Origin: an uncultured Eubacteriaceae bacterium
GTDB lineage: Bacteria; Bacillota; Clostridia; Oscillospirales; Acutalibacteraceae
Assembly (NCBI GenBank): GCA_937905915.1
Contig: CALCVR010000225.1
Span: 1-6,549 of the forward strand
Reading direction: 5' to 3'
Length of the DNA: 6,549 bases
Shown here: piece after piece, positions 1-6,549 of the stretch
Position numbering within the stretch: position 1 is the stretch's first letter
How the letters are laid out: each line of letters opens with the position of its first letter
Program-made: the position numbers and the translations under genes
Notes under the pieces: model-generated
Told to the model about the DNA's origin: nothing
Database searches by the model: none
Seen by the model: only the letters and a program-made list of their open reading frames with translations

Positions 1-9
1 AAACAAAAA

Positions 10-26
10 AAGGAGAGATCGAATTG
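10..26 (+). promoter_or_regulatory. Ribosome binding site and TTG start of the GH92 gene
   Basis: AAGGAGAG at 10-17 is a near-perfect Shine-Dalgarno sequence. The AGGAG core ends 8 bases before a TTG codon at 24-26. The protein from this TTG opens with a basic stretch followed by a hydrophobic core, as a signal peptide should, so the TTG is preferred over any internal ATG. The promoter is not visible; it must lie left of the window. Confidence 0.85.
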
Positions 27-2240
27 AAGGAACGTCTAAGAAAACTCAAAAGGCCGCTGAGCTTATTGCTATCGGCCACCTGTATTTTGAGTTTTTGTTT
101 CTCAACGGTATCGGCCACCAGCTTGGACGATACTGGGAAACAAGAGATGCATTTCCAGACTTCGTTTGAATCTGGAGATCCCAGTCCCATTGAATCGAGA
201 CTGGACGAAGACCGAAGCAAAAATGTAGAAACAGTTGCCGACGTCGGCAGACTGGCAGGGGATGTAACCCATCTGGTCAGTTGGGATACATTGTGGGGAA
301 GCCCCGATTTTAAGGCAGAAGAGGGCAAACACAATTTGTTTGACTACAATACCGGCAGTAAATTCCTAACCGGCATGCAGCCCAGCCAGTCGGAACCTGT
401 CGAGGTAGGATTTGAACTTGAAAAAGAGGCTGTGGTACAAACCTATCTGATTGCCTCAGGCGTGGATGAACAAGGCCGCGACCCCTCCGCCTGGACTCTA
501 TATGGTTCAAACGACAAAGAGGACTGGACAGAGCTTGACAAACAACAGGGCATCACCTTCTCTTCCCGTGAGGAGAAAAAGGTGTTTTCTTTTTCTAATG
601 CCACACCATACCGCTACTATAAAATAGCGGTGACGCAAAACGCTGGCGCACCTATGACCCAATTCTCGGAATTGCAGATTGCCAGTGAAATGGTGGAGCC
701 GTCGGTAGACTTGACCTCTCTCTTGGATCCGGATTCGGTTCAAGCGCCTGATTCTGTCAATGATATCGACGTCATCGGCAATTTGTTTGATTATAACACC
801 AACTCCAAATACGTCACCTCTGTGGTGGGAAGCGCCGAAGAGCCCCTTACTTTGACATTCGGCATGAAAAAAGCCTGTAAGACTACCGAATACGTCATTG
901 CATCAGGCAACGATGAGGATGGAAGAGATCCGGCCTCCTGGACGCTTTACGGCTCTTCGGACGGCTCCGATTGGAAGGTCATCGACCAGCAGAAGAATGT
1001 AACCTTCCAAAGCCGTCAGCAAAAGAAGACCTTTATGCTGTCCCAGCCAGGCGACTACCAGTGGTTTAAGCTGGAGATCACCGGCAACCATGGCGCACCT
1101 ATGACCCAATTCTCGGAGGTTCAGGTGCGCGGAGCTTTGCCTGGATGCGCCACCCCCTATATCGATATGGAAACGCTGGCCGGCGATCCGGACTTTAACG
1201 GCAATGAAGGCAAAGACAAACTGTTCGATTTTGACACCGGCAGCAAATTTGTCACATCCACCATTCCCGGGGATGGAAAAACCGTGTCGGTATCCTTCTC
1301 CCTAACCCAGCCCTTTGTGGTGGATACCTATATTTTAGGTTCCGGCCCGGATATGCCAAACCGTAATCCCATGGACTGGACCCTTTACGGCTCCAACGAT
1401 GGAAGCCAGTGGGATGAGTTGGATAGCCGTGCGGGAGAAACTTTCCGCATCGAAAGGGACCTCAGAAGCTTCTCCTTTGACAATGACACCGCTTATCAAC
1501 AGTATAAACTGGTGATCTCCAAGATCAATGGAGCTACCGATGTGACCCAATTCTCGGAATTCCATCTGTTGGGCGCCCCGGTAAATGAGGGAAAATTCCA
1601 GACAGTGAATGCCCAAATATCGGCACAGTCGGCCGACGGAGATGAGGATGCCCAAACTTCTCCCATGAAAACCCGCAAGAGCCATGGCCCGACCGACGCT
1701 TACAGCAACCTAACCTCCACCGGTTGGACCGGCTGGAATGCTCTGGAGGTCAAAGGCCGCCACGTAGGCAATGAAGAAGCCTATTGCTACAATGTGATCT
1801 ATGATAACCTTTCCATCCCGGTCAGTCAGAACACCAATTTGAGCTATGTGTTCTTCCCGGCTCTGGACGATCCGGACGGATACGACTTTAATTTTACATC
1901 GCAGCATATGGCGGTGGATTTGAAATTTACCGATGGCACCTATCTGAGCCAGTTGGGCGCCAGGGATCAAAACGGTTCCATCGTCAGCCCCATGGCACAG
2001 GGTCAATCGGATATCTTGGCCTACATGCAGTGGAACCACATTTATTCCAACATCGGTTCGGTGGCAGCCGGAAAGACCATCGAGCAAATCTTGATCGGCT
2101 ATCATAAGGCCGACAATCCCGATGGCGACACCGTCTTTATGGGATATTTTGACGACATCCAGATCGAAACCGCGCCCCCGGTGGAATACGATCATCTATC
2201 CGACTATGTCAATATCCTGCGGGGTACCAACAACACCTGA
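24..2240 (+). CDS. Secreted N-terminal fragment: signal peptide, three discoidin-like modules, jelly-roll module
   Basis: This 738-residue frame is the first part of the GH92 protein. Residues 1-31 are a signal peptide: basic MKERLRKLKR, then a hydrophobic core, with likely cleavage after VSA. Residues 43-53 (HFQTSFESGDP) match the short motif that opens many GH92 proteins of Gram-positive bacteria. Three discoidin-like modules follow at about 77-222, 224-371 and 378-517, each with a (D/N)Pxx-W-TLYGS motif and, at its end, TQFSE. Residues about 557-718 form a beta-rich module with the VDLKFTDGTYLSQLGA motif, as seen just before the catalytic part of relatives. Residues 724-738 (HLSDYVNILRGTNNT) are already the start of the GH92 N-terminal domain, so the TGA stop does not fall at a module border. 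If translated alone the product would be exported and could bind glycans, but it has no wall anchor and no catalytic centre. Confidence 0.85.
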   Translation: MKERLRKLKRPLSLLLSATCILSFCFSTVSATSLDDTGKQEMHFQTSFESGDPSPIESRLDEDRSKNVETVADVGRLAGDVTHLVSWDTLWGSPDFKAEEGKHNLFDYNTGSKFLTGMQPSQSEPVEVGFELEKEAVVQTYLIASGVDEQGRDPSAWTLYGSNDKEDWTELDKQQGITFSSREEKKVFSFSNATPYRYYKIAVTQNAGAPMTQFSELQIASEMVEPSVDLTSLLDPDSVQAPDSVNDIDVIGNLFDYNTNSKYVTSVVGSAEEPLTLTFGMKKACKTTEYVIASGNDEDGRDPASWTLYGSSDGSDWKVIDQQKNVTFQSRQQKKTFMLSQPGDYQWFKLEITGNHGAPMTQFSEVQVRGALPGCATPYIDMETLAGDPDFNGNEGKDKLFDFDTGSKFVTSTIPGDGKTVSVSFSLTQPFVVDTYILGSGPDMPNRNPMDWTLYGSNDGSQWDELDSRAGETFRIERDLRSFSFDNDTAYQQYKLVISKINGATDVTQFSEFHLLGAPVNEGKFQTVNAQISAQSADGDEDAQTSPMKTRKSHGPTDAYSNLTSTGWTGWNALEVKGRHVGNEEAYCYNVIYDNLSIPVSQNTNLSYVFFPALDDPDGYDFNFTSQHMAVDLKFTDGTYLSQLGARDQNGSIVSPMAQGQSDILAYMQWNHIYSNIGSVAAGKTIEQILIGYHKADNPDGDTVFMGYFDDIQIETAPPVEYDHLSDYVNILRGTNNT
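252..689 (+). repeat. Discoidin-like (F5/8 type C) module 1
   Basis: Residues about 77-222 of the N-terminal fragment. Landmarks are NLFDYNTGSKF (104-114), YLIASGVDEQGRDPSAWTLY (141-160), GSNDKEDW (161-168) and GAPMTQFSELQ (208-218). The LFDxNTxSK segment and the WTLYGSxD motif are typical of CBM32/discoidin jelly rolls that bind sugars or other surface ligands. At DNA level it shares an exact 27-base segment with module 2 (644-670 equals 1091-1117). The ligand cannot be told from sequence. Confidence 0.75.
693..1136 (+). repeat. Discoidin-like (F5/8 type C) module 2
   Basis: Residues about 224-371. It repeats the landmarks of module 1: NLFDYNTNSKY (253-263), YVIASGNDEDGRDPASWTLY (290-309) and GAPMTQFSEVQ (358-368). 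It is the closest paralogue of module 1 in the protein, which points to tandem duplication within the gene. Confidence 0.75.
1155..1574 (+). repeat. Discoidin-like (F5/8 type C) module 3
   Basis: Residues about 378-517. Landmarks are KLFDFDTGSKF (399-409), YILGSGPDMPNRNPMDWTLY (436-455), GSNDGSQWDELDSR (456-469) and DVTQFSEFHLLG (506-517). It is more diverged than modules 1 and 2, but at its end the DNA still shares a 19-base run (1543-1561) with module 1. Confidence 0.72.
1692..2177 (+). other. Jelly-roll-like module preceding the GH92 domains
   Basis: Residues about 557-718 of the N-terminal fragment. Visible motifs are TGWTGWNALEVKGRH (566-580), YCYNVIYDNLSIPV (587-600), LSYVFFPALDDPDGYDFN (606-623), VDLKFTDGTYLSQLGA (631-646), QWNHIYSNIGSVAAGKTI (669-686) and GYFDDIQIE (707-715). 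From memory, the same block sits between the discoidin module and HLSDY in actinobacterial GH92 proteins. It is beta-rich and ends in a FDDI-type strand like many carbohydrate-binding jelly rolls. Its ligand is unknown. Confidence 0.6.
2238..2240 (+). other. In-frame TGA inside the GH92 N-terminal domain
   Basis: The frame reads GTNNT, TGA, SYSRGITSPLVTMPHGF. In homologues recalled from memory the matching stretch reads like GTNSSGGFSRGN, which puts a glycine opposite the stop. A GGA to TGA change, one base, would explain it. Frame and alignment register are the same on both sides, so an indel is excluded. The next base is T (UGA-U), which is not the leaky UGA-C or UGA-A context. The 34 Trp residues of the two flanking frames are all TGG, and no other in-frame TGA occurs, so general use of UGA as a sense codon is not indicated by this window. 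Confidence 0.85.
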
Positions 2241-2267
2241 TCCTATTCCCGCGGCATTACCAGCCCC

Positions 2268-5200
2268 TTGGTGACCATGCCTCACGGATTTAATTCCATT
2301 GCCCCGGCCACCGATTCCAAAAACACCACCCCTTATGTCTATCAGCTGGCCGGCCCCAAAACCGTCCTGCGCCATATGACCATCACCCATGCGGCATCAC
2401 CGTGGCTGGGCGACTGGGGAACCTGGCAGTTTATGGCCAATACCGATATCGACTACGATTCGGTGACCACAGGGGCCGATATCAATGCCGACCGCCGCGC
2501 CTCCACCTTCACTCACGAAAACGAGGTGGCTAGGGCTCATCACTACAGCGTCACCTTTGAGGAAGGAACTCCCGCCTCCAACGTGACCATGGAAGTAACC
2601 CCCACCTCCCACGCCATGTACACCCGATTCCCCTTCCCGGAGGATAGCCAACACCGCAACCTGATCTTTGACTGCGAGTGGGCCGACGGCGGCCTTACCT
2701 TCCACGGGGACGGCAGCTTTACCGCCTATTCCGACCATGTTTACGGCCATGGGGAATACAGCCCTGGACGTGCCAACGGTGCCACCAGAATGTATATCTA
2801 CGGTGTCATCGATCAGCCCTATGAGAATGCTAAAGCCGTGGACACCAAAATGGGCATCGTCAGCTTTGGCGAGAGCACCAACACCGTCACCATGAAACTG
2901 GCCACCTCCTTCATCAGTGAGGAGCAAGCAAAACACAATCTGGAGTTGGAAATCTCTGACAACGATACCTTTGATTCCATTTTCCAGAAGGCTCAGGCCG
3001 AATGGGACGATCAACTTGGTATCATCCAGGTGGAAGGCGCCAATTTTGATCAGATGACCACCTTGTATTCCGGCCTTTACCGCATGTTTGCCTATCCGAC
3101 CCTTTATTCGGAAAATGCTGGCACCAACGAGAATGAGGAATGGGTTTATTCCAGCCCCTATCACAGCAAGCCCACCGAGCCGGTGGTGACCTCCGGTAAA
3201 ATGTACACCATTAACGGATTCTGGGATACCTACCGTTCTGCTTGGCCAGCCTACTCCTTGTTTACCCCCACTATGGCAGGGGAAATGCTGAATGGCTTGG
3301 TAGAGCACTATAAAGACAGCGGCTGGGGTTCCCGCTGGGTAGCGCCCGGCGCCATCAACTGCATGCTGGGCACCCATGCCGACGCTATTTTTGGCGACGC
3401 TATGGTCAAGGGCATCGATTTTGACTATGAATCGGCCTTCGACGCCTCCCTGAAAAACAGCGCCGTTGTCTCGGATAATCTGGACAAAGGCGGCCGTATT
3501 CAGACCGAGACCTCGGTATTCCGCGGCTATGTGTCCCGAGATGTCCATGAATCGTTCTCCTGGGGCATGGAGGATACCATAAACGACTACAATATCTCCA
3601 AAATGGCTGAGATCTTAGGCAAAACCGATGAGGCAGCCTATTATAAGAACCGCGCCCTCAACTACGTCAATTACTTCAATGAGAATTTGGGATGGTTCAT
3701 TGGCCGCAACTCTGACGGCACTTTCCGTGCAAACAGCATGGATGAATTTGATCCCAGCGCCTGGCACGAAAGAAATGGATACGATTACTGTGAATCCAAC
3801 GCCTGGAACATGTCCTTTACCGCTGTGCAGGATATCCAGGGTATGATTAACCTTTACGGCGGCAAAGAAGGAGCCCTTAAACGTCTCAACGACATGTTCA
3901 ACGAGGATATGGAAGGCAAAGACGTTGGCCAGCGGGAAATGCGTGAGGTTCGTCTCGGCCAGTACAACCACACCAATGAACCCTCTATGTCCATCACCCA
4001 TCTGTTCAACTACCTGGGCGAGCCCTACCGCACCCAGGAATTGACCCGCGATGTCCTTGCTCGCTGCTATACCGGCAGCACCATCGGCCAAGGCTATCTG
4101 GGCGATGAGGACAATGGCGCCGCTTCGGCCTGGTATGTGTTCAATGCCCTAGGATTCTATCCCGCCAGCGTGGGCACACCGGAATACAGCATCACCTCTC
4201 CCTTGTATACCAAAGCCACCATCCGCCTGGAAAACGGCAAAGAGTTGGTCATCAATGCTCCCAACAATTCTCGTGAAAACGTCTACATCCAGAATGTCAA
4301 ATTCAATGGGGAAGATTACGACAAAGTGTACTTTACCCATGATCAATTGACAGCCGGCGGTGTCATTGATTTTGAGATGGGTTCTACCCCTTCCGATTGG
4401 GGCACTGGTATCGATGCCGTACCATCCTCCATCACCACCGGCGATGAGAAGCCCGAGCCGTTGGCCGATATTATTCCCAAAGATGTGACTGTAGCCTCCG
4501 AGATTCAGGGTGACCAAGCGGTTGTAGTATGTGACACTTCGGATGAGACCCAGTATCTTTTTGACAATACCAGCGGTTCTGCGGGATCGTTAAAGGGACA
4601 AAACAAAGAGATTATTTTCTACACCCCCGAAGCCAAGGTAGTGTCCATGTATACCCTTACTACAGATGCTGATATTTCCAATATGCCCCATTCCTTCGCC
4701 CTCTACGGCTCCAACGACGGCCAAAACTGGACTTTGTTGGACAGTCGTCAAGATCAGACTTATGAGTGGAGCAAATATACCCGTCCTTATGCCTTGGAGC
4801 AGTCGAAGCTTGCACCCTATCAGTACTTTAAGTTTGAGTTCGACGAGGAGCGGGATCTGCGTCTGGCCGAGATCGAACTTTTGGGTTCGGATGAGATGCC
4901 TGTAATCCCTGAAATTCAGGTGGATCCTGTCACCGCCCAGCTGGAAGTGGGCGAGACGACCCAGTTGACCGCTACTGTCACCCCGGCTGATGCAGGGAAA
5001 ATCCTGTGGAGCTCTTCGGATGAGACGGTTGCAACAGTGGATGAAAACGGTGTTGTGACCGCACTGAAGGCAGGAGAAGCCACCATCACCGCATCTCTTG
5101 CTTCCAACTCCGATGTTAAGGCGACCAGCACCATTACCGTGGTAGACAAGCCTGTGGTTATTCCTAAGATTACAGTAGAACCATCGTCAGCTCAGTTAGA

Positions 5201-5816
5201 AGTGGGCAAGACAACCCAGCTGACCGCCACCGTCACTCCCAGCGATGCAGGGAAAATCCTGTGGAGCTCTTCGGATGAGACGGTTGCAACAGTGAATGAA
5301 AACGGTGTCGTAACGGCACTGAAAGCAGGAGAGGTTACCATCAAAGCATCCCTTGCATCGGATCCCTCCATTTACGGCCAGTGCACCGTCACCGTTACAG
5401 AAAAAGCAGTCGCCGTGGATAAGTCCAGGCTGCAAGAACTGTATAACGCCAATAAGGATAAGCAGCAGGGAAATTACACCGATGAAACCTGGTCGATCTT
5501 TGTCTCAGCACTGGAGCAGGCCAAGGATGTCTTGGATAATCCAGAAGCCCTTCAGAAAGATGTGGACAAAGCCTATGAGGACCTGCTGAATGCTGTTTCC
5601 GGGTTGAAAGAGGAGAGCTCTTCTTCGTCTTCCACCGGTTCATCGGGAGGAAGTTCTTCCCAGTCGTCGGGATCCGCCGGCAGCAGTAGTTCGTCCGGTA
5701 CCGATTCCCCCAATACAGACGCAACCACTTCACCGCTGCCCTTTATTTTAGTGCTGGCCGCATCAGCGGGCGTTATGGCTTGGGTTTGCATTAAGAAAAA
5801 AGTTGCTGATCAATAA
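2268..5816 (+). CDS. GH92 catalytic fragment with discoidin, Big_2, FIVAR-like and wall-anchor modules
   Basis: The open frame after the TGA starts at 2241; the first possible start is TTG at 2268, with ATG at 2277, and neither has a Shine-Dalgarno sequence. It encodes 1182 residues. The GH92 N-terminal domain runs to about 250 (PHGFN at 5-9, SPWLGDW at 44-50, FTHENEVARAHHY at 81-93). The catalytic (alpha/alpha)6 domain covers about 255-715, with GFWDTYRSAWP (317-327), YCESNAW (507-513, Glu509 as probable general acid), NEP (570-572) and GDEDNGAASAWYVFNALGFYP (612-632, whose Asp residues probably supply the base). Then come a discoidin-like module (735-874), two Big_2 repeats (882-1045), a FIVAR-like module (1050-1113), a Ser/Gly linker and a C-terminal anchor. 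All expected motifs are present. Without readthrough this part would lack export and the first part of the GH92 N-terminal domain, so independent function is doubtful. Linkage specificity cannot be read directly. Confidence 0.85.
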   Translation: MVTMPHGFNSIAPATDSKNTTPYVYQLAGPKTVLRHMTITHAASPWLGDWGTWQFMANTDIDYDSVTTGADINADRRASTFTHENEVARAHHYSVTFEEGTPASNVTMEVTPTSHAMYTRFPFPEDSQHRNLIFDCEWADGGLTFHGDGSFTAYSDHVYGHGEYSPGRANGATRMYIYGVIDQPYENAKAVDTKMGIVSFGESTNTVTMKLATSFISEEQAKHNLELEISDNDTFDSIFQKAQAEWDDQLGIIQVEGANFDQMTTLYSGLYRMFAYPTLYSENAGTNENEEWVYSSPYHSKPTEPVVTSGKMYTINGFWDTYRSAWPAYSLFTPTMAGEMLNGLVEHYKDSGWGSRWVAPGAINCMLGTHADAIFGDAMVKGIDFDYESAFDASLKNSAVVSDNLDKGGRIQTETSVFRGYVSRDVHESFSWGMEDTINDYNISKMAEILGKTDEAAYYKNRALNYVNYFNENLGWFIGRNSDGTFRANSMDEFDPSAWHERNGYDYCESNAWNMSFTAVQDIQGMINLYGGKEGALKRLNDMFNEDMEGKDVGQREMREVRLGQYNHTNEPSMSITHLFNYLGEPYRTQELTRDVLARCYTGSTIGQGYLGDEDNGAASAWYVFNALGFYPASVGTPEYSITSPLYTKATIRLENGKELVINAPNNSRENVYIQNVKFNGEDYDKVYFTHDQLTAGGVIDFEMGSTPSDWGTGIDAVPSSITTGDEKPEPLADIIPKDVTVASEIQGDQAVVVCDTSDETQYLFDNTSGSAGSLKGQNKEIIFYTPEAKVVSMYTLTTDADISNMPHSFALYGSNDGQNWTLLDSRQDQTYEWSKYTRPYALEQSKLAPYQYFKFEFDEERDLRLAEIELLGSDEMPVIPEIQVDPVTAQLEVGETTQLTATVTPADAGKILWSSSDETVATVDENGVVTALKAGEATITASLASNSDVKATSTITVVDKPVVIPKITVEPSSAQLEVGKTTQLTATVTPSDAGKILWSSSDETVATVNENGVVTALKAGEVTIKASLASDPSIYGQCTVTVTEKAVAVDKSRLQELYNANKDKQQGNYTDETWSIFVSALEQAKDVLDNPEALQKDVDKAYEDLLNAVSGLKEESSSSSSTGSSGGSSSQSSGSAGSSSSSGTDSPNTDATTSPLPFILVLAASAGVMAWVCIKKKVADQ
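4470..4889 (+). other. Discoidin-like module 4, after the catalytic domain
   Basis: Residues about 735-874 of the catalytic fragment. Landmarks are YLFDNTSGS (763-771), FALYGSNDGQNWTLLDSR (810-827), YQYFKFEF (851-858) and LAEIELLGS (866-874). It has the same ALYGSNDGxxW motif as modules 1-3 but lacks their TQFSE ending, so it is a distant paralogue and probably an additional binding module. Confidence 0.65.
4911..5141 (+). repeat. Big_2 Ig-like repeat A
   Basis: Residues about 882-958. It shows the Big_2 pattern: VDPVTAQLEVGETTQLTATV, then ILWSSSDETVATVDENGVVT, then ALKAGEATITA. Such bacterial Ig-like modules usually act as stalks or adhesive spacers on surface proteins. The segment 4989-5039 is identical to 5244-5294 in repeat B. 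Confidence 0.88.
5163..5402 (+). repeat. Big_2 Ig-like repeat B
   Basis: Residues about 966-1045, a tandem copy of repeat A at an offset of 255 bases (85 residues). It shows VEPSSAQLEVGKTTQLTATV, ILWSSSDETVATVNENGVVT and ALKAGEVTIKA. The 51-base exact match with repeat A lies within flanks that differ at many synonymous sites. Confidence 0.88.
5415..5609 (+). other. FIVAR-like helical module
   Basis: Residues about 1050-1114 of the catalytic fragment (from VDKSRLQELYNANKDK through AYEDLLNAVSGLK). The pattern DKSxLQxLY, then YTxETWxxFxxALxxAKxVL, then VDxAYxxLxxAVxGL is typical of FIVAR-type three-helix modules in Gram-positive wall-bound glycosidases. It is probably a spacer or ligand-binding module near the wall. 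Confidence 0.75.
5610..5813 (+). other. Ser/Gly linker and putative sortase-type anchoring tail
   Basis: Residues 1115-1146 are almost only Ser, Gly and Thr, a flexible wall-spanning linker. SPNTD (1147-1151, positions 5706-5720) is followed by a hydrophobic stretch (about 1155-1175) and KKK near the C-terminus. This is the layout of a sortase signal, but the motif is SPNTD rather than LPxTG. It resembles the (N/S)PxTG-like motifs seen in gut Clostridia. A plain C-terminal membrane anchor is the alternative. Confidence 0.65.
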
Positions 5817-5851
5817 TCCTGGTTTGTAACGGAGCTGATTCACGTAACAAA

Positions 5852-5886
5852 AAACCGCCTTCCCATTTGTACAGGGAAGGCGGTTT
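5852..5886. terminator. Bidirectional intrinsic terminator between convergent genes
   Basis: The arms 5852-5864 and 5874-5886 form a perfect 13-bp hairpin with a 9-base loop. On the minus strand the GC part of the stem runs into six T residues (5854 down to 5849), a strong terminator placed just after the lipoprotein stop codon. On the plus strand it ends in three T, then CATTTATTT, a weaker but usable tail for the GH92 gene, whose stop lies about 35 bases upstream. Confidence 0.9.
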
Positions 5887-5889
5887 CAT

Positions 5890-6417
5890 TTATTTAAGCT
5901 GTTCAAAGAGGTCTGCTAGAGGGGGATAATAAGGTGTTGCCCCATGGTTCCCATAAAAAGAGGTATCAAAATAGGACTTAAATGTTTTGTCCGGACTTTC
6001 CAGATAATAAAGTTCAGCGCCAGCATACTCTTCCCAATTTGCGTTGGGAGTAAAGATAAGGCCAGTGACATCCAGTTGATCCTGATCATCCTCGTGGGCC
6101 GGGATCAGAGTGGTTTCCTGGTCGTAGACGAAACGGAGATAATCCTCACTCTGCCACCGGTATTCTTCTCCCTCCTGATAGCACGCACAATGGATAGGGG
6201 AGCCTCCCACTACCCAAATGTCGCTTGAGATACATTCCAGCAATACGCGGAACTCATCATCTTCGGGAAGAAATATTTTTTCTTCTCCAGATTTATAATG
6301 AAGAATCATTTGGTTGGGGGATGGGAGGGGAAGGTAACCACGGTGATAGCAGGAAGTCAAATTTAGAAGCAAGATCAACACAACCAGGCTCAGAGTAACA
6401 CACTTTATTCTCAGCAT
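5890..6417 (-). CDS. Small lipoprotein of unknown function
   Basis: The frame encodes 175 residues. Residues 1-22 are a lipoprotein signal peptide: basic MLRIK, a long hydrophobic core, then the lipobox LTSC with Cys23 as the lipidation site, so the product should be tethered to the outer face of the membrane. The mature part is acidic and rich in Tyr and Trp. It contains IFLPEDDEFRVLLECI (48-63), a CAC pair at 77-79 and DVTGLIFTPNANWEEYAGAE (116-135). I recognise no domain and propose no function. The ATG start is chosen because the signal peptide begins there; upstream there is only a weak AGG about 10 bases away. The gene is convergent with the GH92 gene and shares its terminator, so it is not in the same operon. 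Confidence 0.8.
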   Translation of the reverse strand: MLRIKCVTLSLVVLILLLNLTSCYHRGYLPLPSPNQMILHYKSGEEKIFLPEDDEFRVLLECISSDIWVVGGSPIHCACYQEGEEYRWQSEDYLRFVYDQETTLIPAHEDDQDQLDVTGLIFTPNANWEEYAGAELYYLESPDKTFKSYFDTSFYGNHGATPYYPPLADLFEQLK

Positions 6418-6496
6418 TTTTCATCGCCTACTTTTTGAAGCTATAGTGTTGTAAAAGGGTTGCGATTGGTGCTGACAGGTTGGAGTCTCTAGGATC

Positions 6497-6525
6497 AGTA
6501 TAAAAGGACGAGAAGAAAAAATCAA
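6497..6525 (-). promoter_or_regulatory. Sigma-70-type promoter for the lipoprotein gene
   Basis: Read on the minus strand, TTGATT (6525-6520) and TATACT (6502-6497) are separated by exactly 17 bases. Each box is one or two mismatches from consensus. Transcription would start near 6490, giving a leader of about 70 bases before the ATG at 6417. I see no operator or riboswitch-like fold in that leader. Confidence 0.65.
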
Positions 6526-6549
6526 TTCTAAATCATAATTATAATAGTG

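Follow-up and report, generated by a model that had tools for sequence, protein, structure and literature searches.

We found that a single in-frame TGA interrupts a 1930-codon gene for a predicted secreted-type multi-domain GH92 alpha-mannosidase in the window, that is, the whole 6,549-nucleotide stretch of DNA analysed here. The interruption is probably a young nonsense mutation with loss of function, present in two or more strains of a single Solibaculum-like species. Judged from sequence comparison, this is a real interrupted gene, beyond chance, since the orthologues in two related genomes, G001 and G002, are uninterrupted over their full length and can be aligned to it from end to end. 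The single-gene view of the earlier note, in which one TGA splits a 1930-codon GH92 gene, is therefore borne out, with GH92 signatures on both sides of the stop and uninterrupted relatives.

An interrupted GH92 gene and its surroundings

The frame, as read from the sequence on the plus strand, runs from a TTG at 24 to a TAA at 5814-5816 with the TGA as its sole internal stop (Table 1). Positions 24-5813 make up 1930 codons (738, the TGA and another 1191) and, the single stop aside, neither a frameshift nor a second lesion was found in them. Upstream of the orthologous genes, G001 and G002 have the identical AGGAGAG and TTG start. Pfam found no catalytic domain in the 738-aa upstream piece, whose signal peptide is a by-eye call covering residues 1-32. 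With an X placed at the stop, the window protein passes the cut-offs of both GH92 Pfam domains, GH92N with 85.1 bits (cut-off 34.5) and the catalytic domain with 469.9 bits (cut-off 24.6). The downstream piece carries GH92N (76.9 bits by itself, from profile position 11), the GH92 catalytic domain, two Big_2 stretches, a FIVAR match at the cut-off and a C-terminal hydrophobic stretch. The stop had been placed about 15 residues inside the GH92 N-terminal domain; it does lie inside GH92N, but at its 12th residue according to Pfam, which starts the domain at residue 728. Likewise, the 1182 downstream codons given before hold if counted from the TTG at 2268, whereas the span from TGA to TAA is 1191 codons.

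Table 1. Features of the interrupted gene, with positions in the window
Feature	Position	Strand	Basis
Shine-Dalgarno-like AGGAGAG ahead of the TTG start	11..17	+	sequence
Upstream piece, 738 aa + TGA: signal-peptide-like start, discoidin (F5/8 type C) domains	24..2240	+	Pfam
GH92N (PF17678), broken at its 12th residue	2205..2909 (residues 728-962)	+	Pfam, X at stop
TGA, codon 739; TGG in G001 and G002	2238..2240	+	sequence, alignment
Downstream piece, 1191 codons + TAA	2241..5816	+	sequence
GH92 catalytic domain (PF07971)	2925..4385 (residues 968-1454)	+	Pfam, X at stop
Predicted general acid Glu1257 (equivalent to Glu944 of NnGH92)	3792..3794	+	alignment; residue role from passages of PMC10167667
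Predicted catalytic bases Asp1361 and Asp1363 in GDED (equivalent to Asp1056 and Asp1058 of NnGH92)	4104..4112	+	alignment; passages of PMC10167667
C-terminal hydrophobic stretch and basic tail, predicted surface anchor	5730..5813	+	sequence; inference

The best solved-structure match of the downstream piece (E 3.4e-224) is NnGH92 from Neobacillus novalis (PDB 7NSN, PMC10167667). In both proteins, discoidin-type noncatalytic domains precede the GH92 core, and similarity points to a discoidin-like stretch behind it. The general acid and both base aspartates of NnGH92 are conserved in the window protein, and in the alignment the equivalents of Glu944, Asp1056 and Asp1058 all fall downstream of the stop. 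The window gene differs in its extra discoidin, Big_2 and FIVAR-type matches, its C-terminal hydrophobic stretch and its interrupted frame. It also differs at the +1 subsite, where the His-Glu pair of alpha-1,2 GH92 enzymes (His996-Glu997 in NnGH92) is absent from the window protein at that place in the alignment, Val-Gly standing instead at residues 1301-1302 (3924-3929; hand alignment on the flanking motif). A rough pattern fitted 40 of 120 homologues, of which 30 have His-Glu and 7 Val-Gly. Passages of PMC10167667 and PMC5930347 tie the His-Glu pair to alpha-1,2 specificity; its replacement by Val-Gly suggests another linkage specificity, and hence the linkage that would be cut is uncertain.

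Further along the gene (4902-5405) there is a tandem pair of similar Big_2 repeats, each of which cross-matches the place of the other copy in the G001 locus (83% and 79% DNA identity). Beyond it, the minus strand (5890-6417) has a 175-aa frame that starts like a lipoprotein (LNLTSC) and matches no Pfam family. Frames that share its C-terminal end adjoin the orthologous gene in G001 and G002, so this is probably a real conserved gene. Between the two convergent genes, an inverted repeat at 5852-5886 (AAACCGCCTTCCC / GGGAAGGCGGTTT) is probably a two-way terminator. No tRNA was found in the window, and its only two Rfam matches were far below the gathering scores and were taken as chance.

Relatives, split records and a second truncated allele

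We compared the window with 60 relatives of G001, counting G001 itself, and with 398 genomes taken from the family of G001. Its two best matches in DNA were G001, through locus L001 (CAJFOZ010000015.1, uncultured Clostridia bacterium), with 85% identity over window positions 1-6526, and G002, with 77% identity over positions 7-6373. A contig scan for DNA of the same species returned four loci, the best of them 85% identical over the window. The orthologous frames measure 1943 aa in G001 and 1939 aa in G002 from stop to stop, and the codon at the stop column is TGG (Trp) in both. The closest full-length record, P0002 (Eubacteriaceae bacterium CHKCI005), is 91% identical to the window protein in the searched region and 99.5% identical to the G002 protein. 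P0002 and the two orthologues share the domains of the window protein over the whole length; they differ from it in lacking the interruption and in having Trp at the stop column. In distant homologues this column is occupied by Leu, Thr, Ser, Pro, Gly and others, with 15 residue types, and Trp in two, among the 107 of 120 listed homologues that fitted a rough motif (the other 13 were left out of the count). By this comparison the column is variable across GH92 and not functionally fixed. Considering this diversity and the TGG of G001 and G002, the glycine codon that the earlier note had expected at the stop is not the expected one.

The two halves of the gene are already deposited as separate entries. 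P0122 (505 aa) has the C-terminal end ...DYVNILRGTNNT, directly before the stop, while P0003 (1179 aa) begins with the first ATG past it. Taken together they differ from the window at 3 of 1684 residues, one in P0122 (its start residue aside) and two in P0003; the longest contig is 38925 for both clusters, and the sources are ncbi and ena for both, and also nr for P0122. Given these differences, the common longest contig and the sources, P0122 and P0003 most likely come from another strain, whose stop codon we infer from the two proteins. P0122 is near-identical to the window and is named after an uncultured Solibaculum sp., a genus of Oscillospiraceae, and the host is likely a Solibaculum-like bacterium. 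P0122 starts at the TTG at 723; a second lesion in that strain might be suspected from this, but a contig edge near 712-723 would account for such a start too.

These records bear directly on whether the TGA of the window arose in sequencing or assembly. The stop is known from the window assembly and from the protein sequences of P0122 and P0003, which leaves some room for such an error. However, since both proteins split at the same codon in spite of their other residue differences from the window, we regard a base error as highly improbable. The alignment to homologues and other strains proposed earlier thus gave a consistent picture, P0122 and P0003 being split at the same codon and G001 and G002 being uninterrupted with TGG, and the prediction that automatic annotation would report two proteins came true in these two records.

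A query with residues 1-233, admitting proteins of 128-408 aa, returned one protein, P0227, which belongs to the G002 lineage. This 294-aa protein is named after [Clostridium] leptum and represents 14 member sequences on 10 contigs, the longest being 974973. Over these 294 aa it shares 99.7% identity with the G002 protein, and it ends directly before the Trp found at residue 295 of P0002, where G002 has TGG. From these sequences, P0227 is a separate truncated allele of the same gene in the sister (G002) lineage. Both known interruptions of the gene are therefore at Trp codons, 739 here and 295 of P0002 in the sister lineage. A hand estimate puts the chance of this at about 3-20% (68 of 150 transition routes; 136 of 807 with transitions double-weighted), and the coincidence is not remarkable. 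In viral contigs five stretches fitted a peptide pattern, none of them encoding a relative, and the stop context had no exact copy there. Among the titles listed in the literature searches, none concerns this gene.

Possible decoding of the UGA and constraint on the gene

The earlier note had left three readings of the stop, namely that it is young, a base error or decoded. The first fits best, the second was found unlikely above, and the third obtained no positive support in the relatives. If TGA were a sense codon in this organism, for Trp or selenocysteine, the gene would be intact. The Trp at the column in the two closest relatives agrees with this, as does the TAA at both gene ends in the window (5814-5816 and, on the minus strand, 5892-5890). 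On the other hand, about 147 kb of G001 and G002 DNA contained 15 pairs of homologous frames whose ends align. Seven of these pairs end in TAA/TAA (in one case a frame that a longer one overlaps), four in TGA/TGA, two in TAA/TGA and two in TGA/TAA; since aligned homologous frames end in TGA, this codon is a stop in the relatives. The release factor gene prfB (RF2) was over the cut-off in 4/4 relatives, and the window frame has 34 TGG against the one TGA. A reassignment of UGA to Trp of the code 4 type goes with disuse of TGA as a stop and loss of RF2, and the relatives present neither. Nor do they present the marks of a selenoprotein, i.e., Sec machinery and a site kept as Sec or Cys: selA was found in 0/4 relatives (over the cut-off in 1/14 controls), tRNA-Sec exceeded the gathering score in 0/4, with weaker matches in 4/4 (5/14 controls over the score), and G001 and G002 have Trp at the site rather than Sec or Cys. 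This evidence on decoding is drawn from relatives, of which G001 is fragmented into many contigs and perhaps not complete. A code change and selenocysteine are disfavoured by the relatives' sequences, and we give a sense TGA hardly any credence, less than any other reading considered here.

The main rival to a young loss is low-level readthrough, in which a near-cognate tRNA-Trp would occasionally read the UGA and yield a little full-length anchored enzyme, the stop acting as an expression damper. The stop column tolerates 15 residues (in the 107/120 homologues), so the protein would likely put up with an inserted one; apart from the stop the frame is intact, and the two known interruptions of the gene are both at Trp codons. 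Moreover, passages of PMC7918605 argue that many in-frame bacterial stops keep a dN/dS below 1. Weak readthrough that keeps the gene would also fit a break persisting in two strains with a clean frame. Against it, G001 and G002 each have one tRNA-Trp, recognised by an anticodon-arm motif, which is canonical, with a CCA anticodon and a fully paired 5-bp anticodon stem. Passages of PMC13092985 describe readthrough by a tRNA-Trp with a 4-bp anticodon stem; the corresponding tRNA-Trp(CCA) with an unpaired top base pair is not what G001 and G002 have, both showing five paired positions. A second tRNA-Trp motif match in G002 was rejected, as it lies within no tRNA. The hairpin past the stop folds with -14.6 kcal/mol in the window, -18.0 in G001 and -11.4 in G002 (a different fold), with z -2.5 for 50 nt and -0.6 for 103 nt. 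It is thus stronger in G001, which has TGG, so it is not stop-specific and was rejected as a recoding signal. Changes at conserved columns, detailed below, speak against readthrough as well by hinting at relaxed constraint. On balance, low-level readthrough seems unlikely, though it deserves more weight than any other alternative; that this surface mannosidase gene repeatedly gains stops at Trp codons that are read through at a low level seems more doubtful still.

Between the window and G001, dN/dS (Nei-Gojobori) was 0.066 overall, 0.075 upstream of the stop, 0.062 downstream and 0.036 in the GH92 part, with a dS of 0.72. These values, the overall one and that of the GH92 part above all, mean that purifying selection acted on the gene during most of this divergence. 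With zero further stops in frame, neutral decay since the stop would amount to no more than roughly 0.014 substitutions per site (bounds of 0.013-0.016), which is a few per cent of the branch. With G002 as the outgroup, 43 amino-acid and 184 synonymous changes were assigned to the window lineage and 30 and 184 to that of G001, a slight excess of amino-acid changes in the window lineage without significance (p = 0.20). Nor was there a clear excess of private changes at columns that 75% or more of 18 homologues conserve (five in the window, two in G001, six in G002).

The window has two private downstream changes, T870P and V1102G, and each departs from a residue group that 94% or more of 18 distant homologues keep. 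Compared with the P0003-G001 differences, 2 of 47 of which affect conserved groups, this 2/2 gives a Fisher p of 0.005, in a test of two events that was designed post hoc with 18 homologues chosen from 120 listed, and in which base errors in the assembly of the window could mimic the result. One of those 2 in 47 is D1289N, common to the window and P0003; in P0003, which is also broken, it is the only departure from a conserved group kept by G001 and G002. In these alignments, the loss of conserved residues through T870P and V1102G hints that constraint has relaxed since the stop.

Predicted fate of the two pieces and place within the GH92 set

Could both pieces work as separate proteins, a secreted lectin-like discoidin protein and an enzyme started by reinitiation? 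The deposited records do list two proteins, and according to passages of PMC10167667, NnGH92 without its N-terminal domains kept about 55% activity. In that deletion, described in the same source, residues 34-397 were removed and the protein was kept from 398 on, as an extracellular enzyme in B. subtilis. The downstream piece here starts opposite NnGH92 residue 420 (about 432 if it started at the ATG), so the beginning of GH92N would be missing. Since this is past residue 398, where the part kept in NnGH92 began, we consider an active enzyme from the downstream piece unlikely. The first in-frame starts past the stop, TTG at 2268, GTG at 2271 and ATG at 2277, have no clear Shine-Dalgarno sequence (GGTG lies 3 bases before the ATG). 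By eye, the downstream piece lacks a signal-peptide-like start, yet it has the predicted surface anchor at its end, and P0003 was the sole retrieved protein starting there by a rough start pattern. Two working proteins are thus very unlikely.

Under the young-loss reading, the 1930-codon gene would have acquired a TGA at codon 739, which is TGG in G001 and G002. Ribosomes would stop there and, as we infer, leave an exported fragment with discoidin domains and no catalysis. The downstream part would probably not be started efficiently, given that its first starts have no clear Shine-Dalgarno sequence, and if made it would have neither a signal peptide nor the beginning of GH92N. The loss of this gene may be tolerated, as relatives have at least 10 GH92 matches each, and the gene would then drift, as the two private changes of the window strain at conserved columns suggest. 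Counting the orthologue in each, there are 12 GH92 matches in G001 (two of them partial) and 10 in G002, with an internal stop in 0/22, and for genomes of 2.1 Mb and 2.5 Mb, respectively, this GH92 set is large. With 12 and 10 matches in these relatives, loss of one GH92 gene could plausibly be buffered; the paralogues may differ in specificity. The GH92 copy number, the tRNAs and the release factors of the window strain are taken here from its relatives.

Passages of Belinky et al. 2021 (PMC7918605) describe in-frame stops in bacteria as widespread and mostly short-lived, with carbohydrate metabolism the second in frequency after mobile elements. The present case resembles those, as the interrupted gene has been under purifying selection otherwise. 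Belinky et al., in the same passages, suggest readthrough, whereas here no stop-specific signal for it was found. The nonsense allele is likely ordinary in kind, affecting one of several GH92 genes and apparently shared between strains.

The case is also a warning for annotation, the halves of the gene being already in databases as separate proteins. If the UGA were leaky in Solibaculum, a costly 1930-residue surface enzyme would be tuned by translational leakage and not lost. As a young loss, in turn, a nonsense allele in the gene of a large enzyme that degrades glycans, together with the truncation in the sister lineage, would fit turnover within a large GH92 set.
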